Shown: positions 4,083-64,000 of the stretch, in pieces
Layout: each line of letters starts with the position of its first letter
Numbering within the stretch: position 1 is the stretch's first letter
Source: an uncultured Syntrophobacterales bacterium
GTDB taxonomy: Bacteria > Desulfobacterota > Syntrophia > Syntrophales > UBA5619
Direction of reading: 5' to 3'
DNA length: 64,000 bases
Assembly (NCBI GenBank): GCA_903928915.1
Contig: CAIYSL010000139.1
Coordinates: 1-64,000, forward strand
Position numbers and translations under genes: made by a program
Notes under the pieces: model-generated
Told to the model about the DNA's origin: nothing
The model's input: the letters and a program-made list of their open reading frames with translations, nothing else
Database searches by the model: none

Positions 4083-5057
4083 TTAGAAGCAGTACCGCAG
4101 CAGCAGGGAATAGCAATTCTGACCCGACCAGGCCTTTACCCCGTCGGGAAAGGCGAAGTCGATGCCCGGGGCGGAGTTCACCAGGCGGTGGTCCCCCCTG
4201 GTCTCGATTGCCAGGAAGTCCGCCATCGCGGAGAGGGAAAGACGGCCGGTCAGCCCCAGCCTGAGGCCGATCGATCCGTGCCAGGCGTGGCCGTTCGTGT
4301 CCTCGTAGGTGTACCGCTCCCCCGCGCGCAGGACGTGGTGGTCCCGGTTGCGGCCTTCCACATAGGCCCAGTCGAGCTGGACGAGGGCGGTAAGGCCTTC
4401 CAGTCCGGCTGGTCTGGGCAGGTCGAACCCGGCCTTGAGCCCCAGGAAATAGTGCATGTACACCTGCTCGAAGGCGATGCCGTCCCCGGGAAGCGGGGTC
4501 GGCGGCTCCTGCCCCGTCAAGTCCCATTGCGTCCCGTCGTGCGTCGTGAAGCTGAACCGCTGCCGGCGGACCCCCGCGACCGGCCGCAGGTCGACCCAAC
4601 CGGGAAGCCCCAGCCAGTCCGACGTCTTCAGGTCGATGTCCGCCTTGAGCATGTAGCTCCGCTCCAGGCGCAAGCGCGATTCGCTGAAAACGGTCTTGCG
4701 GTCGGGGTCTCCCTCATCATCCCAGTCTGAATCGTACATCCGGCCTTCGACCTCCCGCGACAGGTTCGTGAGGGCCTCGAAGCCGACCGAGAACCGCGGG
4801 AAGTCGGCCCGGAGCTCGGCGCCGGCCCACCAGGAGTCGAGGGGGAATTCCAGGCGGCTCAGGGGCACCTGCTTCGGCGGGTAGGGATTCCCGAATTCGT
4901 AGGAGGTGTGGCTTGCGGCCAGGCGCTGGAGAGTCACGCCGAGGGAGAGACGGTCCGTGAGCCGGAGGGCCGGCTCCTCGCGGGTCGCGGCAACCGCCGG
5001 AACCGCCGCGAGCAGGAAAAGCAGAAGGGCAGCGCCCCCGCTGAATCGCATGGTCAT
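4083..5057 (-). CDS. outer-membrane beta-barrel protein, omptin-like
   Basis: A 324-residue protein with signal peptide MTMRFSGGAALLLFLLAAVPAVAA, alternating amphipathic strands, and a terminal aromatic residue (LLLRYCF) as expected for BamA-inserted barrels. The stretch MYDSDWDDEGDP and the strand pattern RMRLERSYM-like/ADIDLKTSDWLGLPGWVDLRP resemble the omptin fold, but I cannot confirm the omptin catalytic Asp-Asp/Asp-His pairs, so protease activity is not claimed. The ATG at 5057 is chosen because AAGGAAC precedes it at good distance and the signal peptide begins there; an ATG at 5078 is the alternative. It is divergent from the methyltransferase gene. Confidence 0.65.
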   Translation of the reverse strand: MTMRFSGGAALLLFLLAAVPAVAATREEPALRLTDRLSLGVTLQRLAASHTSYEFGNPYPPKQVPLSRLEFPLDSWWAGAELRADFPRFSVGFEALTNLSREVEGRMYDSDWDDEGDPDRKTVFSESRLRLERSYMLKADIDLKTSDWLGLPGWVDLRPVAGVRRQRFSFTTHDGTQWDLTGQEPPTPLPGDGIAFEQVYMHYFLGLKAGFDLPRPAGLEGLTALVQLDWAYVEGRNRDHHVLRAGERYTYEDTNGHAWHGSIGLRLGLTGRLSLSAMADFLAIETRGDHRLVNSAPGIDFAFPDGVKAWSGQNCYSLLLRYCF

Positions 5058-5140
5058 ATTCGCTGTTCCTTTCTGCATGACGTTCTTGCCTTCGAACCGC
5101 CGGCTCCCGTTTCCGGATCGGCCGGTCGGTGTCGTCGGTC

Positions 5141-5169
5141 TGGATACACCAATCGATTCGCCCGGGCAA
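5141..5169 (-). promoter_or_regulatory. candidate promoter for the barrel gene
   Basis: Minus strand TTGCCC (5169-5164), 17 bases, TATCCA (5146-5141). Weak -35; forms a divergent pair with the plus-strand promoter at 5195. Confidence 0.4.
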
Positions 5170-5194
5170 CACAAAGATGCAGTCAATAATCACC

Positions 5195-5223
5195 TTGACA
5201 GGCACAGGGCCTTCCCCTATCCT
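5195..5223 (+). promoter_or_regulatory. sigma70-type promoter of the methyltransferase gene
   Basis: TTGACA (5195-5200), 17 bases, TATCCT (5218-5223). The predicted start near 5230 gives a leader of about 64 bases before the ATG at 5294. Confidence 0.65.
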
Positions 5224-5293
5224 CTGCACCGCAGAAAAACAAGTTTTTATCGGCAGTTGGAAGAGGACTGCTTCGCACGGCAGGGGTGATCCG

Positions 5294-6127
5294 ATGGGCG
5301 ACGAATACCTTGCATCAGGATTTTCCGACGTGGATGCGCGCGGGGACGCCACAGCGTACGGGCAGTGCCTCTCTCTGCTCGACTCCCTGCCCTACTTCCG
5401 GCGCACCAAGGAACGCAGCTACGACCTTCTCCGACTCTCCGCGGGCATGACCGTCCTGGAGGTGGGCTGCGGTATCGGAGACGACGCGCTGCGCATGGCC
5501 GAGAGGGTCGCCCCGGGCGGGACGGTGGTCGGCGTCGATGCCAGCGCCCGGATGATCGCCGCGGCCCGCGCCCGGCTCGCCGCACATCCGCAGGTCGCAC
5601 TGCACCGGGCCGACGCCCGCCGCCTCCCCTTTCGGGACGCGAGCTTCGCGCGGTGCCGCGTGGACCGCACCCTCCAGCATATCCAGCACCCCGGGCAGGT
5701 CCTGCAGGAGATGGCACGGACGCTCAAACCGGGCGGACTCCTGCTGGCGTATGACAACGACTGGGGCACCTTCTCCCTGAGCGGCAGCGACGACGAATGC
5801 ACGCGGATCATGGAGACCCTCTGGGGGGACTCCTTCGCCAACCGCTGGATCGGCCGGTACCTGAGGCGCTACTTCCGGGAGGCGGGGCTCGCCGAAGTGG
5901 CGGCGGTTCCGTCGGTCTGCGTGCTCGACGATTTCGCACTGGCCGATCGGGTCTACAACCTCCGCCAGACGGCAGAGCGGGCCGTTAAAGGGGGCCGCGT
6001 CACTCCCGCACGTGCCGCGCGATGGCTTGCGGACCTGGAAGAGCAAAGCCGGGCGGGCGCCTTCCTCTGCACCCTCACGGCGTTCACGGTTGTGGGAACA
6101 AAACCCGGCCGCGGGACGGCGTCGTGA
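5294..6127 (+). CDS. class I SAM-dependent methyltransferase (UbiE/methyltransferase-11 type)
   Basis: A 277-residue soluble protein. Motif I is VLEVGCGIGDDALRMAE, followed by the acidic loop VVGVDAS and a motif IV/V region FRDASFARCRVDRTLQHI and LKPGGLLLAYD, as in the UbiE/COQ5-like family. The acceptor is not evident. The reading frame stays open upstream, but the promoter at 5195-5223 and the family length both place the start at the ATG at 5294 (GGGGTGAT just before it). It appears monocistronic, with about 140 bases before the kor operon. Confidence 0.85.
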   Translation: MGDEYLASGFSDVDARGDATAYGQCLSLLDSLPYFRRTKERSYDLLRLSAGMTVLEVGCGIGDDALRMAERVAPGGTVVGVDASARMIAAARARLAAHPQVALHRADARRLPFRDASFARCRVDRTLQHIQHPGQVLQEMARTLKPGGLLLAYDNDWGTFSLSGSDDECTRIMETLWGDSFANRWIGRYLRRYFREAGLAEVAAVPSVCVLDDFALADRVYNLRQTAERAVKGGRVTPARAARWLADLEEQSRAGAFLCTLTAFTVVGTKPGRGTAS

Positions 6128-6264
6128 GGGCATCCGCGAGCAGAAGGACCGGAAGCGCGCTTCCGCTGCGGACTTCTTGACGTATTGTTTTTTCCCGCGG
6201 AGTGCGGTAACGTGGCGGCCGGCAGTGAACCCCCTTTGTGAATCTCGACCGGGCAGGGATGGAT

Positions 6265-6474
6265 ATGGCAAGACCAAAGCTGAAGGGACACGTGATCAAT
6301 CGCGACTGGTGCAAGGGATGCGGGATCTGCGTCCATTTTTGTCCCAAGCGGGTTCTGGAGCTGGATGAACACGACAAGGTGGTGGCGGCCAGGCCGCAGG
6401 ATTGCGTCTGCTGCAAGCTCTGCGAGCTGCGGTGCCCGGATTTGGCGATCGAGGTAGCGACGGAGCAGGAGTGA
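6265..6474 (+). CDS. korD: 2-oxoacid:ferredoxin oxidoreductase, delta (ferredoxin-like) subunit
   Basis: A 69-residue two-cluster ferredoxin: C16-x2-C19-x2-C22-x3-C26 (CKGCGICVHFCP) and C47-x2-C50-x2-C53-x3-C57 (CVCCKLCELRCP). As delta subunit it carries electrons from the catalytic core to external ferredoxin. Its stop is one base from the alpha-subunit ATG, the usual order of a KorDABC operon. Start choice: AGGG six bases upstream favours the ATG at 6265; the frame could begin at an ATG at 6259 or a GTG at 6238. Confidence 0.88.
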   Translation: MARPKLKGHVINRDWCKGCGICVHFCPKRVLELDEHDKVVAARPQDCVCCKLCELRCPDLAIEVATEQE

Positions 6475-50706: not shown

Positions 50707-51199
50707 ATGGCCGGAGGCAGGATGAACGGTTCGGAACCTCCCTATCGAGATCGGACCGATGCCGGCAGGGTCCTGGCCGGGTACGTGAACCACTACGATC
50801 CCGCCGCGGCAATCGTGCTGGCCATCCCGCGCGGCGGCATACCGGACATATCTGAGACCCTCCTCCGTTGAGGGGAAAGCGGCCATCATCATAGACGACG
50901 GACTGGCTTCCGGATATACGATGATGGCCGCATCTAAATCAATACGTCAGCGGGGCGCGGCAACGGTCGCGGCGGCGGCGCCGGTCGCCTCCTCGACCGC
51001 GCGGGAACTGCTCGCCGCGGTCGTCGATGAGGTGGTGAGCCCCGTTATTTCCCATCGCACCCCCTTTGCCGTAGCCGGATTCTACCGGGAGTGGCACGAC
51101 CTGACGGACGAAGAGGTGTCCGTCGAACTGAAGGGATTTGCGGAATATGGCAAGAGGCAACGACGCGGCCCGGGAGGCCCTGTTCTGGGAGAAACTTGA
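50707..51199 (+). pseudogene. phosphoribosyltransferase gene, internally deleted and frameshifted
   Basis: The first part (50707-50845) reads YRDRTDAGRVLAGYVNHYD then AIVLAIPRGGIP, the start of an Rv0571c-like phosphoribosyltransferase. The frame then changes; from 50867 a second frame reads VEGKAAIIIDDGLASGYTMMA (the PRPP-binding loop) and continues to FYREWHDLTDEEV. About 110 residues usually found between the two parts are missing, and the two halves are in different frames, so the gene is dead. Its 3' end overlaps the amrS start. Confidence 0.7.
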
Positions 51200-52175
51200 G
51201 GGGAATCGGGGACAGTGCCACCTGTGCGCCCATGAATGCAGGATCCCCGCAGGAAACTTTGGCATCTGCGGCGTCCGGCAGAACGTCGCCGGGGTCCTCC
51301 GGACGCTGGTATACGGTCGGCTGATCGCCGCCAATGTCGATCCCATCGAGAAAAAGCCGCTGTACCATTTCCTGCCCGGTTCCACCTCCTATTCCGTGGC
51401 CACGGTCGGCTGCAATTTCAAGTGCGGCTTCTGCCAGAATTGGCAGATCTCCCAGGCTTCGCCGCGAGACGGCGCCAACCCGCCGGACCGCCAGGTGGCG
51501 CCCGGCGAGATCGTGGCCGCGGCCCAACGGCACGGCTGCCGGAGCATTTCCTATACCTACACCGAGCCCACCATCTATTTCGAGTACGCCTACGACACGG
51601 CCCGGCTGGCCAGGGAGGCGGGACTCGCCAACGTGTTCGTGACCAACGGCTACATGACCCGGCAGGCCCTCGATACGATCAAACCCTACCTCGCCGCCGC
51701 CAATGTGGACCTGAAGAGCTTCCGCGACGAGTCCTACCGGACCACCTGCAAGGCCCGTCTGCAGCCCGTGCTGGACACCATCGCCGCCATGAAAGAGCTC
51801 GGCGTCTGGCTGGAGGTGACCACCCTGGTCATCCCGGGCGAGAACGACTCCGACGAGGAGCTGGGAGAGATCGCCGCGTTTTTGGCCCGGATCGACGGCG
51901 ACATCCCCTGGCATGTCAGTCAATTCCATCCCGATTACCAGTTCGACCACCGCGGTCCCACCCCCGTGGAGACGCTGAAGCGCGCCCGGGACATCGGCCG
52001 CAGGGCAGGGCTCAGGTACGTGTACCTGGGGAACGTCCGGGAGGGAACCGACACCTTCTGCCCCCGGTGCCGCGAGCCGCTCGTCGAACGAACGTATATG
52101 CGGCTGGGCAGGGTCAACCTCAACGGCGGCAAGTGTCCCACCTGCGGCGCCTCGATCGGCGGCGTCTGGTCGTGA
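51147..52175 (+). CDS. amrS: AmmeMemoRadiSam-system radical SAM enzyme
   Basis: A 342-residue radical SAM protein. An N-terminal zinc/Fe-S-like stretch (CHLCAHECRIPAGNFGICGVR) precedes the radical SAM loop C-x3-C-x2-C in VGCNFKCGFCQNWQISQ. SYTYTEPTIYFEYAYD and VTNGYMTRQAL are family marks, and a C-terminal zinc ribbon (CPRCREPL, CPTCGASIG) closes it. AmrS relatives resemble pyruvate-formate-lyase activases; the usual AMMECR1 and MEMO partners are not adjacent. Start chosen as the ATG at 51147. Confidence 0.88.
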   Translation: MARGNDAAREALFWEKLEGNRGQCHLCAHECRIPAGNFGICGVRQNVAGVLRTLVYGRLIAANVDPIEKKPLYHFLPGSTSYSVATVGCNFKCGFCQNWQISQASPRDGANPPDRQVAPGEIVAAAQRHGCRSISYTYTEPTIYFEYAYDTARLAREAGLANVFVTNGYMTRQALDTIKPYLAAANVDLKSFRDESYRTTCKARLQPVLDTIAAMKELGVWLEVTTLVIPGENDSDEELGEIAAFLARIDGDIPWHVSQFHPDYQFDHRGPTPVETLKRARDIGRRAGLRYVYLGNVREGTDTFCPRCREPLVERTYMRLGRVNLNGGKCPTCGASIGGVWS

Positions 52176-52318: not shown

Positions 52319-53179
52319 ATGCAGTTAGTTCTCGGCCTGTTACTGGCCGCCGTGTCGATCGCGGGTCCCGCCGCGGCGCAGGAGGTCCGGTTTCCCCGCC
52401 TCGACGGCTGGCGGCTGACAGCGGAGGTCCAGCGGTTCCTCCCCAAGACCCTGTACGAGTACATCAACGGCGCGGCCGACCTCTACCTGGCCTGCGATTT
52501 CGAAGAGCTGTGGGTGGCGGAGTACGCAAGCGACCGGAAGGGCTCGGTGGTCGTGGAGGTGTACCGCCACCGGACCCCCCGGGACGCCTTCGGGATCTAC
52601 AGCCAGGAACGGCCGGCCGAAGCGCCTCCGGTTCCGGTGGGCAGCCAGGGGTACGCCGACACGAATCTCCTCAACTTCGTGGCCGGCCCCTATTACGTCA
52701 AGATCAGCAGCTCCGGAACCGGGGCCGCGGACCGGGAGGTGCTGATGCGCTTCGGCTCGGCCACGGCCTCCGGCCTGGGGACGGACGGGGGGCTGCCCCC
52801 GGAGCTGCAGCTCTTCCCCGCGGAGGGGAAGCGGGCAAACTCGGAGAAGTACCTTACCAGGAATTTCCTCGGGTACCCCTTTTTCAACGCCGTGTTCACC
52901 GCCGAGTACGAACGCGCCGGCAGAAGGTTTCGGCTGTTCATCCTGGCGGCCAGGGACGCGGCGGAGTGCCGGGAGCTCCTGGGCCGGTACCTGAGGCAGA
53001 CGAAAGCCCCGGAGCAGGATCCGAAGGAGGGCCGCCTGCGGGTCAGGGACCCGCACCACGGGGCCGTTGAATTGTCCTGGCAGGGGCGGTATATCTGGGG
53101 CAGCGTCGATCTGGCGGACCCCGACCTGTCTGCGGGATACCTGGCGCGTATCGAAGCGCTGATGAAGGAAGTGAGATAA
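52319..53179 (+). CDS. secreted DUF6599-family protein
   Basis: A 286-residue exported protein: signal LVLGLLLAAVSIAGPAAA, then TLYEYINGAADLYLACDFEELW and RDAFGIYSQERP, which fit DUF6599 (family recalled, not checked). No enzyme motif is seen. AAAGGAG before the ATG fixes the start. It opens the redox cassette with the aldo/keto reductase, DUF362 and polyferredoxin genes; a periplasmic partner of these is likely. Confidence 0.7.
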   Translation: MQLVLGLLLAAVSIAGPAAAQEVRFPRLDGWRLTAEVQRFLPKTLYEYINGAADLYLACDFEELWVAEYASDRKGSVVVEVYRHRTPRDAFGIYSQERPAEAPPVPVGSQGYADTNLLNFVAGPYYVKISSSGTGAADREVLMRFGSATASGLGTDGGLPPELQLFPAEGKRANSEKYLTRNFLGYPFFNAVFTAEYERAGRRFRLFILAARDAAECRELLGRYLRQTKAPEQDPKEGRLRVRDPHHGAVELSWQGRYIWGSVDLADPDLSAGYLARIEALMKEVR

Positions 53180-53266
53180 GCTCAGCGGAGCGGCTCGGGC
53201 GGCGGTGAGGCGAAAAGTGAGGGAGACCGCGGACGGTGCACCGATCGCGGAGGAGAGGGAGGGACC

Positions 53267-54472
53267 ATGGCAAAAGGGAAGATCGGCAGACGGCAGTTCA
53301 TGAAGACGACGCTGGCGGGGTTCGGTGGGTTTTCCGTGCTCGCCGCTCTGGAGAACAAACCCGCGGAGACGCGGGGCGATGCCGGGACCAGGGCCAGAAA
53401 ACCGGTCACGCGGGTGCTGGGCGGAACGGGGCTCACGCTCCCGGTGGTCAACATGGGGGTGATGAACTCGGACAACCCCAGCCTGATCCGGGCCGCCCTG
53501 GACGCGGGCATGGTGCTTCTGGACACGGCCCATGCCTACATGCAGGGGCGAAACGAAGAGGTGATCGGGAGTGTGGTCAAGGGGCGGCCGCGGGACTCCT
53601 TCCTGATCGGCAGCAAGGTGGGGCTCCCCCAGGACCGCACCACCGGCCGGTACCTCGAGGGGGCCACGGAGGCGGAGTTCCTGAAGAAGCTCGACCTCAG
53701 CCTCAAGAGGCTGGGGCTCGAGCATGTGGACATCCTGTACCACCATAACGTGTCGAGACGGGAATCTGCCTTTTACGAGCCGGTGCTCAACGCCATGGCC
53801 AAGGCGAAGAAGGCGGGGAAGTTCCGGTATGCCGGGATCACCACCCATTCCAACGAGCCGGAGGTGATCCGGGCGGCGGTGGACACGAAATTCTACGAGG
53901 TCATCCTCACCTCCTACAACTACCAGCAGCGCCACGTGGCCGAGGTGAAGGAGGCGATCGGCCGCGCGGCCCGGGCGGGAATCGGGATCGTGGGGATGAA
54001 GGCGATCCGGGGCGGGTTCCGCCAGAGTCCGTCGGTGCCGAGCGCCTCCGCTGCCCTGAAGTGGGTCCTCCAGGACGAGAACGTCCACACGATCGTCCCC
54101 GGGTTCACCACCTTCGACCAACTGGAGACGGACCTGGCCGTGATGGAGGAGCCCCGCCTGACCGATGCCGAGCGGCGCGAGCTGGCAGCGGCGTCGCTGC
54201 TGCCGGGGCTCACCTGCCAGGGGTGCCGCACGTGCCTCGGGCAGTGCGTCGCCGGGCTTCCCATCCCCGACCTGATGCGGGCCGCGATGTACGTCTACGA
54301 CTACCGGCACCTCGGCATGGCCCGGGAGCTCGTCGTCTCTCTGGGGCTGTCGCCGCGCCCCTGCGGGGAGTGTTCTGTCTGCCCGGTTCGCTGCCCCCAG
54401 GGGTTCGCCGTCCGGGAGCGGGTTGAGGACATCGTCCGCATCCGGCAGGTCCCGGAGGAGTTCCTGGTATGA
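53267..54472 (+). CDS. Tat-exported aldo/keto reductase with C-terminal ferredoxin domain
   Basis: A 401-residue protein. N-terminal Tat motif GRRQFMKTTLAGFGGF; then an aldo/keto reductase barrel with the tetrad in DTAHAYMQGRNE (Asp, Tyr), IGSKVGLP (Lys) and DILYHHN (His). The C-terminus has two 4Fe-4S motifs, CQGCRTCLGQC and CGECSVCPVRC. NAD(P)H is absent from the periplasm, so electrons probably come through the Fe-S centres rather than from NADPH. Its stop overlaps the DUF362 ATG by four bases. Confidence 0.85.
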   Translation: MAKGKIGRRQFMKTTLAGFGGFSVLAALENKPAETRGDAGTRARKPVTRVLGGTGLTLPVVNMGVMNSDNPSLIRAALDAGMVLLDTAHAYMQGRNEEVIGSVVKGRPRDSFLIGSKVGLPQDRTTGRYLEGATEAEFLKKLDLSLKRLGLEHVDILYHHNVSRRESAFYEPVLNAMAKAKKAGKFRYAGITTHSNEPEVIRAAVDTKFYEVILTSYNYQQRHVAEVKEAIGRAARAGIGIVGMKAIRGGFRQSPSVPSASAALKWVLQDENVHTIVPGFTTFDQLETDLAVMEEPRLTDAERRELAAASLLPGLTCQGCRTCLGQCVAGLPIPDLMRAAMYVYDYRHLGMARELVVSLGLSPRPCGECSVCPVRCPQGFAVRERVEDIVRIRQVPEEFLV

Positions 54473-55380
54473 GCATATCGCGACGGCAATTCCTGAAGGC
54501 AACCGCGGCCGGGGTGGCGATCGGCCTGGCGGGCCCGCCCGGCTTCGCGGGCGCGGCAGAGGAGGTGGACCTGGCGGTGATCTCGGGCGAGCCGGCAGCG
54601 GCCACGGCCAAGGCCCTGGAGACCTTGGGGGGGATCTCCCGGTTCGTGAAGAAGGGGCAGCGCGTCCTGATCAAGCCCAACATGTCCTTTGCCAAGGGGC
54701 CGGACATTGCCGCCACCACGCACCCGCTGGTCGTCGCCGCGGTGGCGCGGGCCTGCAGCGAGGCCGGGGCAGGGGAGGTCCTGGTTCTGGACCACACGCT
54801 CCAGCGGGCCGAACTCTGCCTCGAACGGACCGGGATCCGCGAGGCCTGCCGGGGCATCCCGGGGGTCCACTGCCTGGCCGTCCAGGACCGGAAGTTCTTC
54901 AGGGAGGTCAAGGTCCCGCGGGGCAAGGTGCTGGAGCGGGTGGAGGTGGTCCGGGACCTCCTCGACGACTGCGTCCTGATCAGCGTCCCCGTGGCCAAGT
55001 CCCACTCCACCACCGGGGTGAGCCTCGGGCTGAAGGGGTTGATGGGGCTGATCTGGGACCGGGAGAGTTTCCACTCCCAGTTCAACATCAACGAGGGGAT
55101 CGCGGATTTGGCCACGGTGGTCCGCCCCCGGCTGACCGTCCTGGACGCCACCCGGGCCCTCACGACGGGCGGTCCGGGGGGGCCGGGCGAGGTCAAGCGG
55201 CCGAACCTCGTCGTGGCCGGGACAGACCCGGTGGCCGTGGACTCCTTCGGCGTGGGGATTGTCCCCTGGTACGGCCAGAGCTTCCGGGGCCGCCAGGTGG
55301 AGCACCTCCTGGCCGCCCACCAGCGCGGCCTGGGGCAGATCGACGTGGACAAGCTCCGAATCCGCAGGGCGAGCGTATGA
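54469..55380 (+). CDS. Tat-exported DUF362-domain protein
   Basis: A 303-residue protein with Tat motif ISRRQFLKATAAGVAIGLAG and the DUF362 core (LIKPNMSFAKGPDIAATTHP, VAKSHSTTGVSLGLKGLMG, GTDPVAVDSFGV). DUF362 proteins of this type often carry or accompany Fe-S clusters; this one has few cysteines and depends on neighbours. Four-base overlaps on both sides place it in a tight operon. Confidence 0.85.
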   Translation: MSISRRQFLKATAAGVAIGLAGPPGFAGAAEEVDLAVISGEPAAATAKALETLGGISRFVKKGQRVLIKPNMSFAKGPDIAATTHPLVVAAVARACSEAGAGEVLVLDHTLQRAELCLERTGIREACRGIPGVHCLAVQDRKFFREVKVPRGKVLERVEVVRDLLDDCVLISVPVAKSHSTTGVSLGLKGLMGLIWDRESFHSQFNINEGIADLATVVRPRLTVLDATRALTTGGPGGPGEVKRPNLVVAGTDPVAVDSFGVGIVPWYGQSFRGRQVEHLLAAHQRGLGQIDVDKLRIRRASV

Positions 55381-57044
55381 GAAGAGCGGTCCAATCGCTG
55401 TCGCTGCTCCTGTTCACCCTGCTGTTCCTGCTGGCCACCTTTCGGCTCCCCGGGTGGCTCCCCGCCGACATCTACCTGCGGATCGACCCGCTCATCGGGC
55501 TCACCGCCGTGGCAGCCTCGCGGGAGATGATCCCCCGGGTCCTCTGGGCGTTGGTCCTGGTCGGGGCGACCCTGGCACTCGGGCGGTTCTTCTGCGCCTG
55601 GCTCTGCCCGCTGGGGGCGACCATCGACGGCTTCGACGGCATCCTGTTCCGGAAGGTCCGCCGGCCGGGGCCGAGCGGGGAGACGAACCTGCGGAAGACG
55701 AAGTACGTGCTTTTGATCCTGATCGTCGGCGCGGCGCTCCTCGGGGTCTCGCTGGCCTACCTGCTCGACCCGATCGCGCTCCTGACCCGGTTCTACGCCC
55801 TGGTCCTGTACCCTGCGGCCGTGGCGGTGGCCAACGTCCTGCTGGACCTCCTGCGGCCGCTGACCGGGGCGATGGGCTGGGTCGGCCTCTCCCACCTGCG
55901 GTATCCCCAGCCGGTATTCTACATGACGGGCCTGACGCTTTTGCTCTTCGGCGGGGTGATCAGCCTGGGGCTGCTGGCGCCGCGGTTCTGGTGCCGCTTC
56001 CTCTGCCCCCTGGGGGCCCTGCTCAGCCTGATCGCGCCGCTGGGGCTGTTCAAGCGCCGGGTGAGCGCCGCGTGCACCCGCTGCCTGGCCTGCCAAAAGG
56101 CCTGCCCGATGGGGGCGATCCCCGCCGATCCGCTTGCCACCCGGGCGCCCGAATGCATCCAGTGCCGCACCTGCGCCGCGGTCTGCCCCGAGCGGGCCGT
56201 CTCCTACCCCGCCTCGCTTTCCGGGATGGGCGAGCACTCCCGGTTCGACCTGTCGCGCCGGGGGGCGATCGCCTCCCTGGGCGGGGGGCTGACCCTGGGG
56301 TTCGTGACGCTCCAGAGCCCCTTCACCTTCTTGGAGGGGCGGCGGCAGCTCATCCGGCCGCCGGGCGCGCTCCCCGAGGAGGCCTTCCTGCGCACCTGCG
56401 TCCGCTGTGGGGAGTGCATGAAGTCCTGCGTCACCAACACGCTCCAGCCCTGCCTGTGGGAGTCGGGTCTGCAGGGGCTCTGGACCCCCAAGGCGGAGCT
56501 CCGGATGGCCCCCTGCGAGCCGAACTGCAACGTCTGCGGTCGGGTCTGTCCGACCCAGGCGATCCGGTCGGTGTCGCTGGAGGAGAAGAACCACGCCAAG
56601 ATCGGGACGGCGATCCTCAAGAAGGAGCAGTGCCTGGTCTGGGCCCAGAACAAGCTCTGCCTAATCTGCGACGAGATCTGCCCGTACAACGCCATCGTGT
56701 TTCGGCCGATCGACGGATTCCGGCGGCCCGTGGTGATCGCCTCGCGGTGCAACGGCTGCGGGTACTGCGAGCAGCGCTGCCCCGTGAAGGGGGACTCCGC
56801 CATCGTCGTGGTCCCGGACGGCGAGATCCGCCTGAAGGAGGGCTCCTACATCCGCGAGGCGAAGAAGCTCCAGCTCGAGTTCAAGCCCGACCCCGGCGAC
56901 GACAGATACCTGATCGGCGAGTCGGGGTTCGAGATCGGCGGGCAGCCCCCGGCCGCGCCGGGCGGACTGCCCGCCGCAGGACCCCCCGCCGGGACCGCGC
57001 CCGGCTCCCTCCCGCCCGCCGGGAAGCCCAAGGGGTTCCTCTAA
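55377..57044 (+). CDS. membrane polyferredoxin, NapH/RnfC-like electron carrier
   Basis: A 555-residue protein. Five or so membrane helices in residues 1-225 are interspersed with CxxxCP pairs (FFCAWLCPLG and FWCRFLCPLG) as in NapH/NosR-type quinol or membrane electron proteins. Then come many 4Fe-4S motifs: CTRCLACQKACP, CIQCRTCAAVCP, CVRCGECMKSC, CNVCGRVCP, CLICDEICP and CNGCGYCEQRCP. A proline-rich tail ends the protein. It could carry electrons from the quinone pool or cytoplasm to the two Tat proteins encoded upstream. Confidence 0.85.
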   Translation: MRRAVQSLSLLLFTLLFLLATFRLPGWLPADIYLRIDPLIGLTAVAASREMIPRVLWALVLVGATLALGRFFCAWLCPLGATIDGFDGILFRKVRRPGPSGETNLRKTKYVLLILIVGAALLGVSLAYLLDPIALLTRFYALVLYPAAVAVANVLLDLLRPLTGAMGWVGLSHLRYPQPVFYMTGLTLLLFGGVISLGLLAPRFWCRFLCPLGALLSLIAPLGLFKRRVSAACTRCLACQKACPMGAIPADPLATRAPECIQCRTCAAVCPERAVSYPASLSGMGEHSRFDLSRRGAIASLGGGLTLGFVTLQSPFTFLEGRRQLIRPPGALPEEAFLRTCVRCGECMKSCVTNTLQPCLWESGLQGLWTPKAELRMAPCEPNCNVCGRVCPTQAIRSVSLEEKNHAKIGTAILKKEQCLVWAQNKLCLICDEICPYNAIVFRPIDGFRRPVVIASRCNGCGYCEQRCPVKGDSAIVVVPDGEIRLKEGSYIREAKKLQLEFKPDPGDDRYLIGESGFEIGGQPPAAPGGLPAAGPPAGTAPGSLPPAGKPKGFL

Positions 57045-59232: not shown

Positions 59233-59309
59233 GCGCCGGGAGCGGCGCCTGCCGGACGATGATGTCCTCCGCCCGGGAACCGGCCACCGGCCTCCGGGGA
59301 GGTCCGGCG

Positions 59310-59657
59310 GTGCATGAGGTTGCGCTAACCGGGGCGCTGCTCGCGATCGTGGAGGAATACGCCCAGCGGGAGAAGTTCGGCCGGGTCAACTCCCTCCGGC
59401 TCTCCCTCGGCCGCCTCTCCTGTCTCGACCCCGAGGCCCTCGAATTCACCTTCGCCGTCCAGGCCCGGGGCACCGTGGCCGAGGGGGCCCGGCTGGAGTT
59501 CGCGATCCAGCCCGCTGTGCTCGCCTGCGTTGCTTGTGGAAAGGACTCGGTCTGCGAAGGCCCCTTTGAAACCTGCTGTCCTCATTGCGGGAGTTGCGAC
59601 GTCCTCTTGACGGGAGGAACGCAAGATCTGAAACTCCTGGAGTTGGATGTGGATTAG
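59310..59657 (+). CDS. hypA: hydrogenase nickel-insertion protein HypA
   Basis: A 115-residue protein that begins V/M-HEVALTGALLAIVEEYA (His2 is the nickel ligand) and has a zinc site in CVACGKDSVC and CPHCGSC. HypA helps load Ni into the large subunit precursor. It uses a GTG start at 59310, preceded by GGGGAGG at good distance; without it His2 would not be the second residue. No other hyp gene is in the window. Confidence 0.9.
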   Translation: MHEVALTGALLAIVEEYAQREKFGRVNSLRLSLGRLSCLDPEALEFTFAVQARGTVAEGARLEFAIQPAVLACVACGKDSVCEGPFETCCPHCGSCDVLLTGGTQDLKLLELDVD

Positions 59658-59801
59658 CGCAGAGGACTCCGCGCCCTATCTTCTGCGCTCAATTCGTGAC
59701 CCCGCCCGAATCAGGTGAGTACCTTTCACCGCATTCTCGGGACCTCCTCCCGGTCCCTCCTATACTGTCAATCAGATGACGGATAATCACGAAAAAAATA
59801 G

Positions 59802-59830
59802 TTGACAGACGTCCAGTCTTCTCCAATAAT
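59802..59830 (+). promoter_or_regulatory. sigma70-type promoter of the hydrogenase operon
   Basis: TTGACA (59802-59807), 17 bases, AATAAT (59825-59830), in an unusually AT-rich stretch. Upstream CTGTCAA (59766-59772) is the inverted copy of TTGACAG. A GGGACC/GGTCCC hairpin near 59738 may end hypA transcription. Confidence 0.5.
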
Positions 59831-59883
59831 GTATATACAGGAGCATACAGGTACATACTGAAGCGAAAAAAAAGGGGGAGGGT

Positions 59884-61083
59884 ATGGAAACGGAAGGGGA
59901 CGCGTATCGGAGGAAGGTAAAGACGCAATACAGGGAATTGCTTTCCCATTGCCAGGAAAACCTGGACCGGATGGAGGGAGAATTACCGAAGCCTCGGGTG
60001 AATCTCCATGAGGAACTAACTTCCCAGGGCATCAGTCGGCGAGATTTCATCAAGTGGACCTCGGTCACCACAGCCCTCTTGATGCTGCCGCCGGTTTTCA
60101 AACCCCTGGTGGCCAGGGCCGCCGAGCAGTTCAGCCGCCTTCCCGTCGTATGGCTTCACTTTGCTGAATGCACGGGATGCAGCGAGGCGCTGTTGCGCAC
60201 CAGCTACCCCAACGTGGACAGCATCCTGCTCGACACGATCTCGCTGGAGTACCACGAGACACTCATGGCCGCAGCGGGACACCAGGCAGAGCAGAACCTG
60301 GAGAAGGCCCTTGCTGACTTCAACGGGAAGTTCATCTGCGTCGTTGAGGGCGCCCTGCCGCGCGGCCTGGACGGTAAGTATCTTACCCTCGGACCAAAGG
60401 GGAAAACGGGGATCGCGCTGGCCAGGGAGGTCACATCGAAGGCAGCTGCCGTGATCTGTATCGGCAGTTGCGCCTCCTTTGGCAACGTGCAGGCAGCCAA
60501 GCCGAATCCGACGGACGCCGCAAGCATCGGCTGGGCGCTGAAGATCCAAACCGTGAACATCGCGGGCTGTCCCCCGAACCCGGCCAACTTTGTCGGCACC
60601 GTTCTGCACTACCTCTTATTCGGTGGATTACCGGCGCTTGACTCCCTGGGCCGCCCGATCTGGGCTTACCGAATGCGGATCCATGACTATTGTGAAAGAC
60701 GTCCCCACTATGATGCCGCCGAATACGTTGAGGAGTGGGGCGACATGGCTGCCGCGAAAGGCTGGTGCCTCTACAAAATGGGGTGCAAAGGTCCCTATAC
60801 CTATGGCAACTGCGGCAAGGTGCGTTTCAATGATGCCGTCTCCTGGCCGATCATGGCGGGGCATGGCTGTATGGGCTGCACGGAGCCCGGCTTCTGGGAC
60901 ACCATGGCTCCCCTGGAGAAGCCGATCGATGAGAAGACGCTGGGCGGCGGCGAGAAGACCATCGATACGCTCGGCGTGACCCTCCTGGGAGCGACCTTGG
61001 CCGGAATTGGTGCTCATGCAGGGTTGATGGCGGTCAAGCATAGGGATAAATTGCACATCTACGAAACGTCCCATAAGGAATAG
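59884..61083 (+). CDS. hyaA: NiFe hydrogenase small subunit, Tat-exported
   Basis: A 399-residue subunit with Tat motif S51-RRDFIK and a C-terminal membrane helix (LGVTLLGATLAGIGAHAGLMAV). Proximal cluster cysteines begin AECTGCSEALLR; GSCASFGNVQAA, AGCPPNP, HDYCERR and GHGCMGCTEPGFWD complete the three clusters. The positions where O2-tolerant hydrogenases carry extra cysteines (CTCC and SxGC) are G and N here, so an ordinary O2-sensitive proximal cluster is expected. The Tat arginines come after a 50-residue hydrophilic extension, longer than usual. GGGGGAGGGT precedes the ATG. Confidence 0.92.
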   Translation: METEGDAYRRKVKTQYRELLSHCQENLDRMEGELPKPRVNLHEELTSQGISRRDFIKWTSVTTALLMLPPVFKPLVARAAEQFSRLPVVWLHFAECTGCSEALLRTSYPNVDSILLDTISLEYHETLMAAAGHQAEQNLEKALADFNGKFICVVEGALPRGLDGKYLTLGPKGKTGIALAREVTSKAAAVICIGSCASFGNVQAAKPNPTDAASIGWALKIQTVNIAGCPPNPANFVGTVLHYLLFGGLPALDSLGRPIWAYRMRIHDYCERRPHYDAAEYVEEWGDMAAAKGWCLYKMGCKGPYTYGNCGKVRFNDAVSWPIMAGHGCMGCTEPGFWDTMAPLEKPIDEKTLGGGEKTIDTLGVTLLGATLAGIGAHAGLMAVKHRDKLHIYETSHKE

Positions 61084-61099
61084 AACGGGAGGAATTGAA

Positions 61100-62770
61100 A
61101 TGACGAAGCGCATCATTGTCGATCCCGTCACGAGGATCGAGGGGCACTTGCGAATCGAAGTCGAAGTCGACGAGAGCAACGTGATAAAGGATGCCTGGAG
61201 CAGCATCACACTGTGGCGTGGCATTGAGACCATCCTCAAGGGACGCGATCCGCGGGACGCCGGTCTGATGACCCAGCGCTTCTGCGGCGTTTGCACCTAT
61301 TCGCACTATGAGGCGAGCATTCTTGCCTGTGAGGATGCATTCAAGGTCACACCGCCGCCCAATGCGCGGCTCATCCGCAACCTGATCAACGGCGGCCAGT
61401 ACCTCACGGACCATATCATGCATTTCTACCACCTGCACGGCCTGGACTGGGTGGACATCGTCAGCGCTCTGTCTGCCGACCCTCGGAAGGCCGTCGACCT
61501 GGCGAAATCCTACCACGCGAATCCCTTCAACTGCTCGGAGACCCATTACCGGGCTGTCCAGGAGCGCCTTGCCCGGTTTGTAAAAACAGGGCGGCTGGGT
61601 CCCTTTGCCAATGCATACTGGGGAAATCCCTCCTTCAAGCTCCCCCCGGAGGCGAACCTCGTTATCGTCTCCCACTACCTTGACGCCCTCCAGGTGTCCA
61701 AGATCGGTGCCCAGATGATGGCTATCTTCGGCGGCAAGAATCCCCATCCACAGACCCTCGTCGTGGGCGGTGTCACTTCCATCATGGATCTTGACGCCCA
61801 CCGCATCGGCGAGTACCTCTTTCGGTTGCGGGAGGTGAAGGCCTTCGTCGAGACGGCCTATATCCCCGATGTCCTGCTCGCGGCAACATACTATAAAGGG
61901 GAGGGGCTCCAGGGGATAGGCGGCGGCGTGAAGAACTACCTTTCCTACGGCGGCTTCCCGCTGGACGACCGCTGGAGGAATCTCCTGTTCCCGAGAGGGA
62001 TTGTGAAGGATCGCGATCTGTCGAAACCCCAGAGACTCGGCGAGGCGAAAATCACCGAAGAGGTTACCCATGCCTGGTACCGGGGGACAGAGTCCCAGCA
62101 CCCCTCCGTGGGTACGACGGAGCCCGAATACACCGGCTATGACGCAAATGGAAATGTGAAGGGAGGAGAGAAGTATACATGGTGCAAGGCGCCCCGCTAT
62201 GACGGCGAGCCTTACGAAGTGGGGCCGCTCGCCCGCTTCCTGGTCGCCTATGCTCAAGGAAACCCGGAGATAAGGGGTCTCGTTGATTCCACCTTGAAGG
62301 CCACTGGACTTCCGGCGAGCGCACTCTTCTCGACACTGGGGCGAACGGCCGCACGGGCCTTGGAAACGAAATATATCGGCGACCATGTCGAGAGCTGGGT
62401 CAATGAGCTCGTGACCAACATCAAGACCGGCGACACCAGAACCTGGACCCGGTGCGAAGTTCCCGACCAGGCCGAAGGCCGGGGGATGACGGAAGTCCCC
62501 CGGGGCGCCCTGGGCCATTGGATCCGCATTGAGGACAAGGTAATCGCCAACTACCAGGCAGTGGTTCCCTCGACCTGGAACTGCTCGCCCCGGGACAAGG
62601 CGGGACGGCGCGGTCCCTATGAAGAATCCCTCATCGGGATAAGACTGGCCAAGGTGGACCAGCCCCTGGAGATCCTCCGCACGATTCACTCCTTCGATCC
62701 CTGCATGGCCTGTGCGGTCCATATCATCGATCCGAAATCGGACACGATCAGACAGTTCAAAGTGTCCTGA
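61100..62770 (+). CDS. hyaB: NiFe hydrogenase large subunit
   Basis: A 556-residue subunit carrying the NiFe(CN)2CO site: L1 C62-x2-C65 in RFCGVCTYSH and L2 C535-x2-C538 in DPCMACAVH, with His541 as the cleavage point followed by a 15-residue C-terminal peptide removed by the maturation protease. It exports with the small subunit through Tat (hitch-hiker). RIIVDPVTRIEGHLRIE opens the protein. The ATG at 61100 follows the small subunit by 16 bases. Confidence 0.95.
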   Translation: MTKRIIVDPVTRIEGHLRIEVEVDESNVIKDAWSSITLWRGIETILKGRDPRDAGLMTQRFCGVCTYSHYEASILACEDAFKVTPPPNARLIRNLINGGQYLTDHIMHFYHLHGLDWVDIVSALSADPRKAVDLAKSYHANPFNCSETHYRAVQERLARFVKTGRLGPFANAYWGNPSFKLPPEANLVIVSHYLDALQVSKIGAQMMAIFGGKNPHPQTLVVGGVTSIMDLDAHRIGEYLFRLREVKAFVETAYIPDVLLAATYYKGEGLQGIGGGVKNYLSYGGFPLDDRWRNLLFPRGIVKDRDLSKPQRLGEAKITEEVTHAWYRGTESQHPSVGTTEPEYTGYDANGNVKGGEKYTWCKAPRYDGEPYEVGPLARFLVAYAQGNPEIRGLVDSTLKATGLPASALFSTLGRTAARALETKYIGDHVESWVNELVTNIKTGDTRTWTRCEVPDQAEGRGMTEVPRGALGHWIRIEDKVIANYQAVVPSTWNCSPRDKAGRRGPYEESLIGIRLAKVDQPLEILRTIHSFDPCMACAVHIIDPKSDTIRQFKVS

Positions 62771-62782
62771 AAGGAGGCATCC

Positions 62783-63451
62783 GTGGAGACGATTACACCC
62801 AAGAAGGAATGGTCCGCGGCGATCCGTTTGAACCACTGGCTCAGGGTAATATGCATCTCCTTTCTCATTATCACTGGGCTATACATCGCCGAGCCCTACA
62901 CCATCGAGAAGGGGTGGACGGGGGAGAAGATGTTTATGGCGGAGGTTCGTTTCTGGCACATATTCTTCGGAATGAGCATCGGCCTCCTCTTTATCTGGCG
63001 ATTCTATCTCTCGTTTTTCTCGCGGTTCCACGCGGACTGGCAAGACTTCCTCGCCTGGACGAATTGGACGAATGTGAAGCAGGAGCTCCGATTCTATTTT
63101 CTCCTTTCCAAGGAGCCGCCGGAGGCAAAATATCTCTTCGATCCCCTTCAGTCGCTTTCCTATTTGGGGTTCATGGTAATGCTGTTCGGCCTGATTCTGA
63201 CGGGGACGATTATGATGGGTGCCGGCTACGATCAGGGGCTTACGGCTCTGGTCTATAGGATAGTCAAGCCGGTCGAAATCTGGATAGGGGGGCTTGCCAC
63301 GATCCGCTGGATACACCATATCATGATGTGGGGGGTCATCCTCTTCATGGCGATCCACGTCAACATGGCCTTCCTGCACGATTATCTGTTCAAGGAGGGG
63401 ACCGTATCTTCGATGATCAGCGGTACGCTTTTCCATCGGTCGCACAAATAA
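62783..63451 (+). CDS. hyaC: hydrogenase cytochrome b subunit
   Basis: A 222-residue membrane protein with four to five helices and several histidines for two b hemes (IRLNHWLRVICISFLIITGLY, EVRFWHIFFGM, RWIHHIMMWGVILFMAIHVNMAF). It passes electrons from the hydrogenase to the quinone pool. GTG start with AAAGGAGG upstream. Placement after the large subunit is that of hyaABC. Confidence 0.9.
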   Translation: METITPKKEWSAAIRLNHWLRVICISFLIITGLYIAEPYTIEKGWTGEKMFMAEVRFWHIFFGMSIGLLFIWRFYLSFFSRFHADWQDFLAWTNWTNVKQELRFYFLLSKEPPEAKYLFDPLQSLSYLGFMVMLFGLILTGTIMMGAGYDQGLTALVYRIVKPVEIWIGGLATIRWIHHIMMWGVILFMAIHVNMAFLHDYLFKEGTVSSMISGTLFHRSHK

Positions 63452-63478
63452 CAGTTGGAGAGAGAGGGTTTCACACAG

Positions 63479-63500
63479 GGGGGGAGGGCGCCCTCCCCCC
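63479..63500. repeat. 22-bp perfect palindrome between hyaC and hyaD
   Basis: GGGGGGAGGGC followed at once by GCCCTCCCCCC. It could form a hairpin with a minimal loop and lower expression of the protease gene. Confidence 0.5.
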
Positions 63501-63519
63501 TGCATTCACAGGAGACGCG

Positions 63520-64000
63520 ATGGGGGAAAGACCGATCATCATTCTGGGGCTGGGTAATATCATGATGGGCGACGAAGGCTTCGGCGTCCACTTCATCCGA
63601 TGGCTTGCAGGGCGTTACCGGCCTCTCCCGGGGCTGGAGATCATAGACGGCGGCACGCTGGGCTACGTCTTGCTGGATACGATCTGCCGCGCCAGGCACG
63701 TGATCGTCATCGATTGTATTCGCCTGGTCGACACGCCGGGCTCTCTGTACCGTTTCGATCGAAAGGCGATGGAGGCCCACCTCCCCCCGCCGAGGTCGGC
63801 ACATGAAGTGAAGTTTTCCGATGTCCTGTGCAAGGCAGAGATGATGGGAGAATGCCCGGGGATGACCTTTCTGTGCGTGGTACCGGAGCGAATCGTCGAT
63901 ATGGACCTGAAGATGACTCCTGCGGTGCAGGGAAGATTCCTGCGGATGGAAGAGATCCTCATGGCAGAACTGGCTACCCATTTCCTGTTTCCTGAGAGGA
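63520..64000 (+). CDS. hyaD: hydrogenase maturation endopeptidase (HyaD/HybD family), 3' end outside window
   Basis: 160 codons are seen and no stop before the edge. GLGNIMMGDEGFGVHFI opens it; the nickel ligands expected from HybD are present as E19 (GDEG), D65 (VIVIDC) and H95 (SAHEVKFSD). The enzyme trims the large subunit after His541 once the NiFe site is loaded. GGAGAC lies just before the ATG. Only the last few residues should be missing. Confidence 0.9.
   Translation, partial: MGERPIIILGLGNIMMGDEGFGVHFIRWLAGRYRPLPGLEIIDGGTLGYVLLDTICRARHVIVIDCIRLVDTPGSLYRFDRKAMEAHLPPPRSAHEVKFSDVLCKAEMMGECPGMTFLCVVPERIVDMDLKMTPAVQGRFLRMEEILMAELATHFLFPER

Follow-up and report, generated by a model that had tools for sequence, protein, structure and literature searches.

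A cassette joining exported DUF362 and aldo/keto reductase proteins to a NapH-NapG-type polyferredoxin in a Syntrophales bacterium

Results

Gene content of the cassette

The DNA analysed, referred to here as the window, is a stretch of 64,000 nucleotides from an uncultured Syntrophobacterales bacterium and forms part of contig C139 in a 4.34 Mb genome. Its plus strand carries four consecutive genes, encoding a DUF6599 protein, an aldo/keto reductase (AKR) with a signal for twin-arginine translocation (Tat), a Tat-exported DUF362 protein and a membrane polyferredoxin. An earlier note, made from the sequence alone, had described these genes as a redox cassette; all four open reading frames (ORFs) were confirmed where that note had placed them, Pfam and NCBIfam models bore out the families, and the last three genes were indeed coupled. 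The genes, and the motifs within them discussed below, are as follows.

52319..53179, + strand: DUF6599 protein, 286 amino acids (aa) (Pfam PF20244, E 8.5e-47)
53267..54472, + strand: Tat-exported AKR barrel with a C-terminal two-cluster ferredoxin domain, 401 aa, P0002 (Aldo_ket_red, 9.5e-33; Fer4_9)
54215..54394, + strand: two [4Fe-4S] cysteine motifs of the AKR, residues 317-327 and 366-376, C-x2-C-x2-C-x3-C (family alignment)
54469..55380, + strand: Tat-exported DUF362 protein, 303 aa, P0003 (Pfam PF04015, 1.2e-46; TAT_signal)
54997..55035, + strand: motif K177-x-H179-x9-K189 of the DUF362 protein, aligned with LarA His174 and Lys184 (profile alignment, weak score)
55377..57044, + strand: NapH-NapG fusion polyferredoxin, a membrane protein of the dual general secretory (Sec)/Tat type, 555 aa, P0004 (NCBIfam NapH, MauM/NapG)
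56256..56261, + strand: internal twin arginine R294-R295 of P0004, before the last, weakly hydrophobic segment (pattern)

Coupling is by ATGA overlaps, in which the next ATG lies over the preceding stop codon, between the AKR and DUF362 genes (54469-54472) and between the DUF362 and polyferredoxin genes (55377-55380); a gap of 87 bp separates the end of the DUF6599 gene from the AKR gene. The polyferredoxin starts at the ATG at 55377, the mechanical ORF being too long at its 5' end. A pattern scan found no CxxCH heme motif in any of the four proteins. Named matches to the cassette are Syntrophus- and Syntrophaceae-like assemblies, and the order DUF6599-AKR-DUF362-fusion is kept in loci L002, L003, L004, L006, L007 and L013, where AKR identity is 58-77%. 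Since this order recurs in six loci and every pair of the genes shows strong linkage across genomes, the cassette is not a product of chance.

Two separable modules

Linkage was surveyed in 99 genomes of the class Syntrophia; the Fisher p-values given ignore shared ancestry. The cassette resolves into two modules that can occur apart. DUF362 and the fusion protein occur together in 61 genomes, compared to 42.0 expected (p 5.7e-18), and are adjacent in nearly all loci examined (23-24 of 25 in Bacteroidota), with DUF362 directly preceding the polyferredoxin across both Syntrophia and Bacteroidota. The second pair, the Tat AKR and DUF6599, is found together in 23 genomes where 6.1 would be expected (p 3.7e-19); the two genes are neighbours, and the pairing extends to several phyla. 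The fusion protein is present in 24 of the 25 AKR genomes of the survey (16.4 expected, p 1.5e-4) and in 19-22 of 25 from other phyla. The obligate partner of the polyferredoxin is DUF362 rather than the AKR, and AKR-DUF6599 is a second module often encoded elsewhere in the genome. The two modules come together only in some families, and gene order varies. Conserved linkage is thus seen within each pair, and for all four genes in the six loci, but not between the modules in many genomes.

DUF6599 also lies beside DUF362 in loci that have no AKR (L049, L067, L071, where the DUF362 protein is a remote one, L102 and L104), and so is a partner of both modules. The L071 case (4526-6342, G000:C49) is a second DUF6599 in the same genome as the cassette.

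The polyferredoxin

P0004 matches several Fer4 families and contains two Fer4_5 stretches in Pfam. Its first half matches NapH (3.7e-25) and its second half MauM/NapG (7.8e-24), the NapG model covering residues 319-487, with both matches below the NCBIfam equivalog cut-offs. The cysteines fall into six cluster-type groups, in agreement with the at least six cluster motifs counted previously, together with two NapH-type CxxxCP motifs; the NapH-like part holds these at 73-77 and 206-210 and a two-cluster domain at 233-243 and 260-270. An RR-type motif is present in the region corresponding to R294-R295 in 30 of 31 relatives (pattern). No solved relative of the fusion protein was found by phmmer (E up to 1e-6). 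NapGH is a quinol dehydrogenase, and because P0004 is homologous to it a link to quinone would be expected; P0004 is likely to be a quinone-type electron relay encoded beside the exported AKR. The polyferredoxin of MLMS-1 is a fusion of NapH and NapG in which Tat moves the last transmembrane segment (PMC5449189). The architecture of P0004 is that of this published dual Sec/Tat NapHG type (PMC5449189), and hence is not new. The earlier note contained neither the fusion and its internal twin arginine nor the DUF362-LarA-nickel link described below.

The DUF362 protein and the nickel-pincer nucleotide

P0003 bears a classical Tat motif, SRRQFLKA. Its structure prediction was poor (predicted local distance difference test, pLDDT, 43 from ten near-identical sequences), phmmer found no solved relative (E up to 1), and the few papers on DUF362 found in the literature give no function for the Tat/polyferredoxin-paired type. 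It is possible, though we regard it as doubtful, that DUF362 is a LarA-clan enzyme using the nickel-pincer nucleotide (NPN); it would receive the cofactor in the cytoplasm before export by Tat, and the NapHG relay would then connect it to quinone. Hydride taken from or given to a substrate on NPN would be passed on as electrons, so that this NPN enzyme would carry out net redox chemistry as part of respiration. To our knowledge, all NPN enzymes so far described are racemases or epimerases.

In support of a nickel enzyme, DUF362 and LarA (DUF2088) belong to one Pfam clan, CL0471 (PMC11770544). A LarA protein matches the Pfam DUF362 model at E 0.0023, which is below the model's cut-off, over the same region as H179 and K189. 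Furthermore, K177, H179 and K189 are present in 94/94 sequences from Syntrophia, Bacteroidota and other phyla, and H179 and K189 fall on LarA His174 and Lys184 in an HHalign alignment, both pairs being ten apart, although its probability is less than 1% and not significant. We take His174 to be the catalytic and Lys184 the cofactor-tethering residue of LarA. Against the nickel reading, no conserved His was found in DUF362 for the second catalytic residue of LarA, His108, the region having a conserved Asp108 instead, and DUF362 has no C-terminal LarA_C domain.

The lar genes provide a second line of evidence. larC, larE or larB lie within ~8 kb of DUF362 in seven genomes, G030, G045 and G062 from Syntrophales and G116, G118, G120 and G189 from Bacteroidota. 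In G189 (L163) DUF362-NapH-NapG-larC-larE-larB form one same-strand run with short gaps or overlap, and in G120 (L113) only larC and larE lie within the contig. The lar genes were checked by NCBIfam above cut-off in L163 and L109, and in L041 for LarE and LarB. Such distances have a chance expectation of 0.13 for Syntrophia and 0.04 for Bacteroidota genomes with both genes. These genomes were partly picked through the AKR, and as G116/G118 and G045/G062 are near relatives the linkage represents around four independent lineages. LarC was never near LarA in the genomes surveyed; searches of G030, G045 and G189 gave no canonical LarA, and G116, G118 and G120 have only weak partial matches to it, such as also occur where larC is absent. 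In G030 a 3-hydroxyacyl-CoA dehydrogenase gene lies between DUF6599 and the lar genes (L041, 10712-11614).

The genome-wide survey followed larC, with larB and larE looked at locally. LarC is present in 7/24 Bacteroidota genomes with DUF362 but in only 2/50 without (p 0.004). In Syntrophia no co-occurrence with the fusion protein was seen, 33 of 65 fusion genomes having LarC against 32.2 expected and 32 having none. This test is weak, however, because LarA itself fails it (LarA with LarC in 23 genomes, 20.8 expected; odds ratio 1.4, p 0.42). LarC was undetected in 19/42 LarA genomes of Syntrophia and LarA was absent from 26/49 LarC genomes; NPN synthesis and its known use are therefore uncoupled in this class. 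The idea that every DUF362-NapHG protein uses NPN finds no support in the Syntrophia counts, a test to be read with the failure of LarA in mind. Many genomes keep the conserved Lys and His residues yet lack larC, so that another cofactor, or imported NPN, could serve there. The window's genome does have larC, though on another contig than the cassette.

In about 15% of genomes larB, larC and larE occur without larA, and an unidentified user of NPN, with a fold distinct from LarA, has been proposed from this (PMC11796402). Because these genomes make NPN without LarA, DUF362, as a distant clan member, is a reasonable and testable candidate for at least a subset of such users. That the Tat-exported DUF362 with its NapHG relay is one of these long-sought enzymes is offered tentatively.

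The exported aldo/keto reductase

The twin arginine of the AKR is at residues 8-9, in the classical Tat motif GRRQFMKT. Its family was aligned as 49 members from Syntrophia and other phyla and compared with 20 further AKRs taken from these or related genomes, 12 plain and 8 with an iron-sulfur (Fe-S) motif. Of the eight cluster cysteines, seven occur in every member and the eighth in 48/49; all are absent from the plain controls. The Tat motif and the two conserved [4Fe-4S] motifs are thus as expected for an exported Fe-S AKR, as first suggested. Position 214, presumably that of the Gln which holds the nicotinamide amide (NADP contacts are assigned here on what is generally known of AKR structures), is Leu in 48/49 members and Gln in 11/12 plain and 7/8 cytosolic Fe-S controls. 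The family has Met244-Lys245 in place of Tyr-Ser, a replacement shared by some controls, and the R/Q..E-N adenosine motif appears degenerate in the alignment. The catalytic Lys and His are missing in 7/49 members. AKRs without these two residues, mostly from Aminicenantes (L014, L015, L016, L019-L022), retain the Fe-S cysteines, so that the clusters vary less than the NADP chemistry does.

The absence of NAD(P)H outside the cytoplasm, which the earlier note had cited in proposing an Fe-S-fed AKR, is not sufficient to exclude NADP, since Tat can export folded holoenzymes with NADP bound, as with glucose-fructose oxidoreductase. The AKR could be an enzyme of that kind, with NADP permanently bound and clusters that merely stabilise it or dock it to a partner; the catalytic tetrad D86, Y91, K117 and H160 is complete in P0002 and in most family members, which would suit this. 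We consider it unlikely, however, given the Gln to Leu change, the degenerate adenosine site and the Aminicenantes subgroup, where the clusters outlast Lys and His. It is these lost contacts, rather than the location of the protein, that suggest an enzyme not dependent on free NADP(H); the retained Asp-Tyr-Lys-His tetrad is the part of the evidence that does not agree.

DUF6599

The DUF6599 protein has a Sec signal peptide (residues 1-20) and two tandem domains, with no cofactor motif found in it. The AlphaFold2 model is good (pLDDT 88.5). In this model residues 20-156 resemble the PknH sensor domain by VIA-align (Z 13.0, root-mean-square deviation (rmsd) 2.9, 127 aligned), and also TiME, residues 160-286 resemble TM1622 (Z 10.2, rmsd 3.0, 117 aligned), and RseB and MucB match both halves; these are matches of single domains, and a shared fold does not show function. 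Foldseek gave no match below E 0.001 in PDB or viral libraries, and the literature search found no paper on DUF6599. The most fitting description of DUF6599 is a secreted partner for binding or docking. The earlier suggestion that it is the secreted partner of the AKR is supported by the co-occurrence of the two described above.

Neighbouring genes

Directly upstream of the cassette, at window 51138-52175, is AmrS (AmmeMemoRadiSam radical SAM enzyme, TIGR04337). It also lies within ~4 kb of DUF362 or DUF6599 in L118, L119, L131 and L132, making 5 loci against ~0.3 expected; since the cassette's closest relatives do not retain it, it was ruled out as a member. A [NiFe] hydrogenase operon begins ~2.2-3 kb downstream, with HypA, the small and large hydrogenase subunits, cytochrome b and a hydrogenase maturation protease on the same strand (59259-63999).

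Discussion

In the cassette a known quinone relay is newly combined with two exported proteins that are uncharacterised. We consider it somewhat better than even, at roughly 55%, that the cassette forms a redox system outside the cytoplasm that is connected to the quinone pool. In this reading the NapH-NapG fusion would exchange electrons with (mena)quinone in the membrane, and its Fe-S clusters would carry them to the outer face; there the Tat-exported DUF362 protein, the constant partner, may be the main catalytic or electron-exchanging subunit. The Tat AKR with its two [4Fe-4S] clusters and the secreted DUF6599 would be a second module, joined to the first in the operon of this lineage. Electrons probably reach or leave the AKR via the clusters and not via free NADP(H), because the barrel has lost conserved NADP contacts. 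Gene content, export signals, architecture, linkage and the lost residues were observed directly; the electron path, its quinone link and the catalysis we infer.

Several observations weigh against such a system. The modules are unlinked in many genomes, and G075 and the closed Aminicenantes genome G109 have AKR-DUF6599 but lack the fusion protein. The complete tetrad of P0002 and most of its family fits ordinary carbonyl chemistry, and we know of no route by which a flavin-free barrel could turn cluster electrons into hydride. Alternatively, but improbably, the system could serve maturation or repair: NapHG would supply electrons of low potential by which an exported metalloenzyme is activated or mended, and DUF362, the AKR and DUF6599 would be accessory factors. 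This role would fit the resemblance of DUF6599 to secreted sensor or scaffold domains, the downstream hydrogenase operon and the lack of recurring substrate-specific neighbours, but no conserved target gene was seen beside the cassette in its relatives.

Should the outline of a quinone-wired redox system hold, NapHG relays linked to quinone would serve exported enzymes of a so far unrecognised class in many anaerobes, among them an AKR in which NADP contacts were given up and the clusters kept. The link between DUF362 and nickel is the most interesting lead and could be tested with existing expression systems; were it true, it would provide a concrete candidate for the NPN users where larA is missing but larB, larC and larE are present (PMC11796402), and the first NPN enzyme tied to respiration.

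Parts of the cassette have known counterparts. In the NapH-NapG system and its fused MLMS-1 form (PMC5449189) are found the same CxxxCP motifs, cytosolic two-cluster domain, internal RR and NapG-like four-cluster domain as in P0004, but P0004 has DUF362 and AKR genes beside it and not a nitrate reductase. MsrP-MsrQ (YedYZ) offers a parallel to the proposed system: an enzyme exported by Tat receives electrons from the respiratory chain via a partner in the membrane, with molybdenum cofactor and heme where the cassette has Fe-S clusters with the AKR and DUF362. Cytosolic AKRs of the COG1453 type share the barrel and C-terminal Fe-S motif with the Tat AKR, and Fe-S-bearing controls also have His194 and Met244; the Tat AKR differs in its Tat signal, the change of Gln214 to Leu, the invariant Lys245 and R338, M341 and Y342 of the cluster domain, which are invariant in its family only. 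Finally, LarA resembles DUF362 in clan (CL0471), in the cofactor-site His and Lys at the same spacing and in the larC/E/B genes that stand beside DUF362 in some genomes, while DUF362 differs from it in having no C-terminal domain and no His108 equivalent, in being exported and in its pairing with a quinone-type relay.

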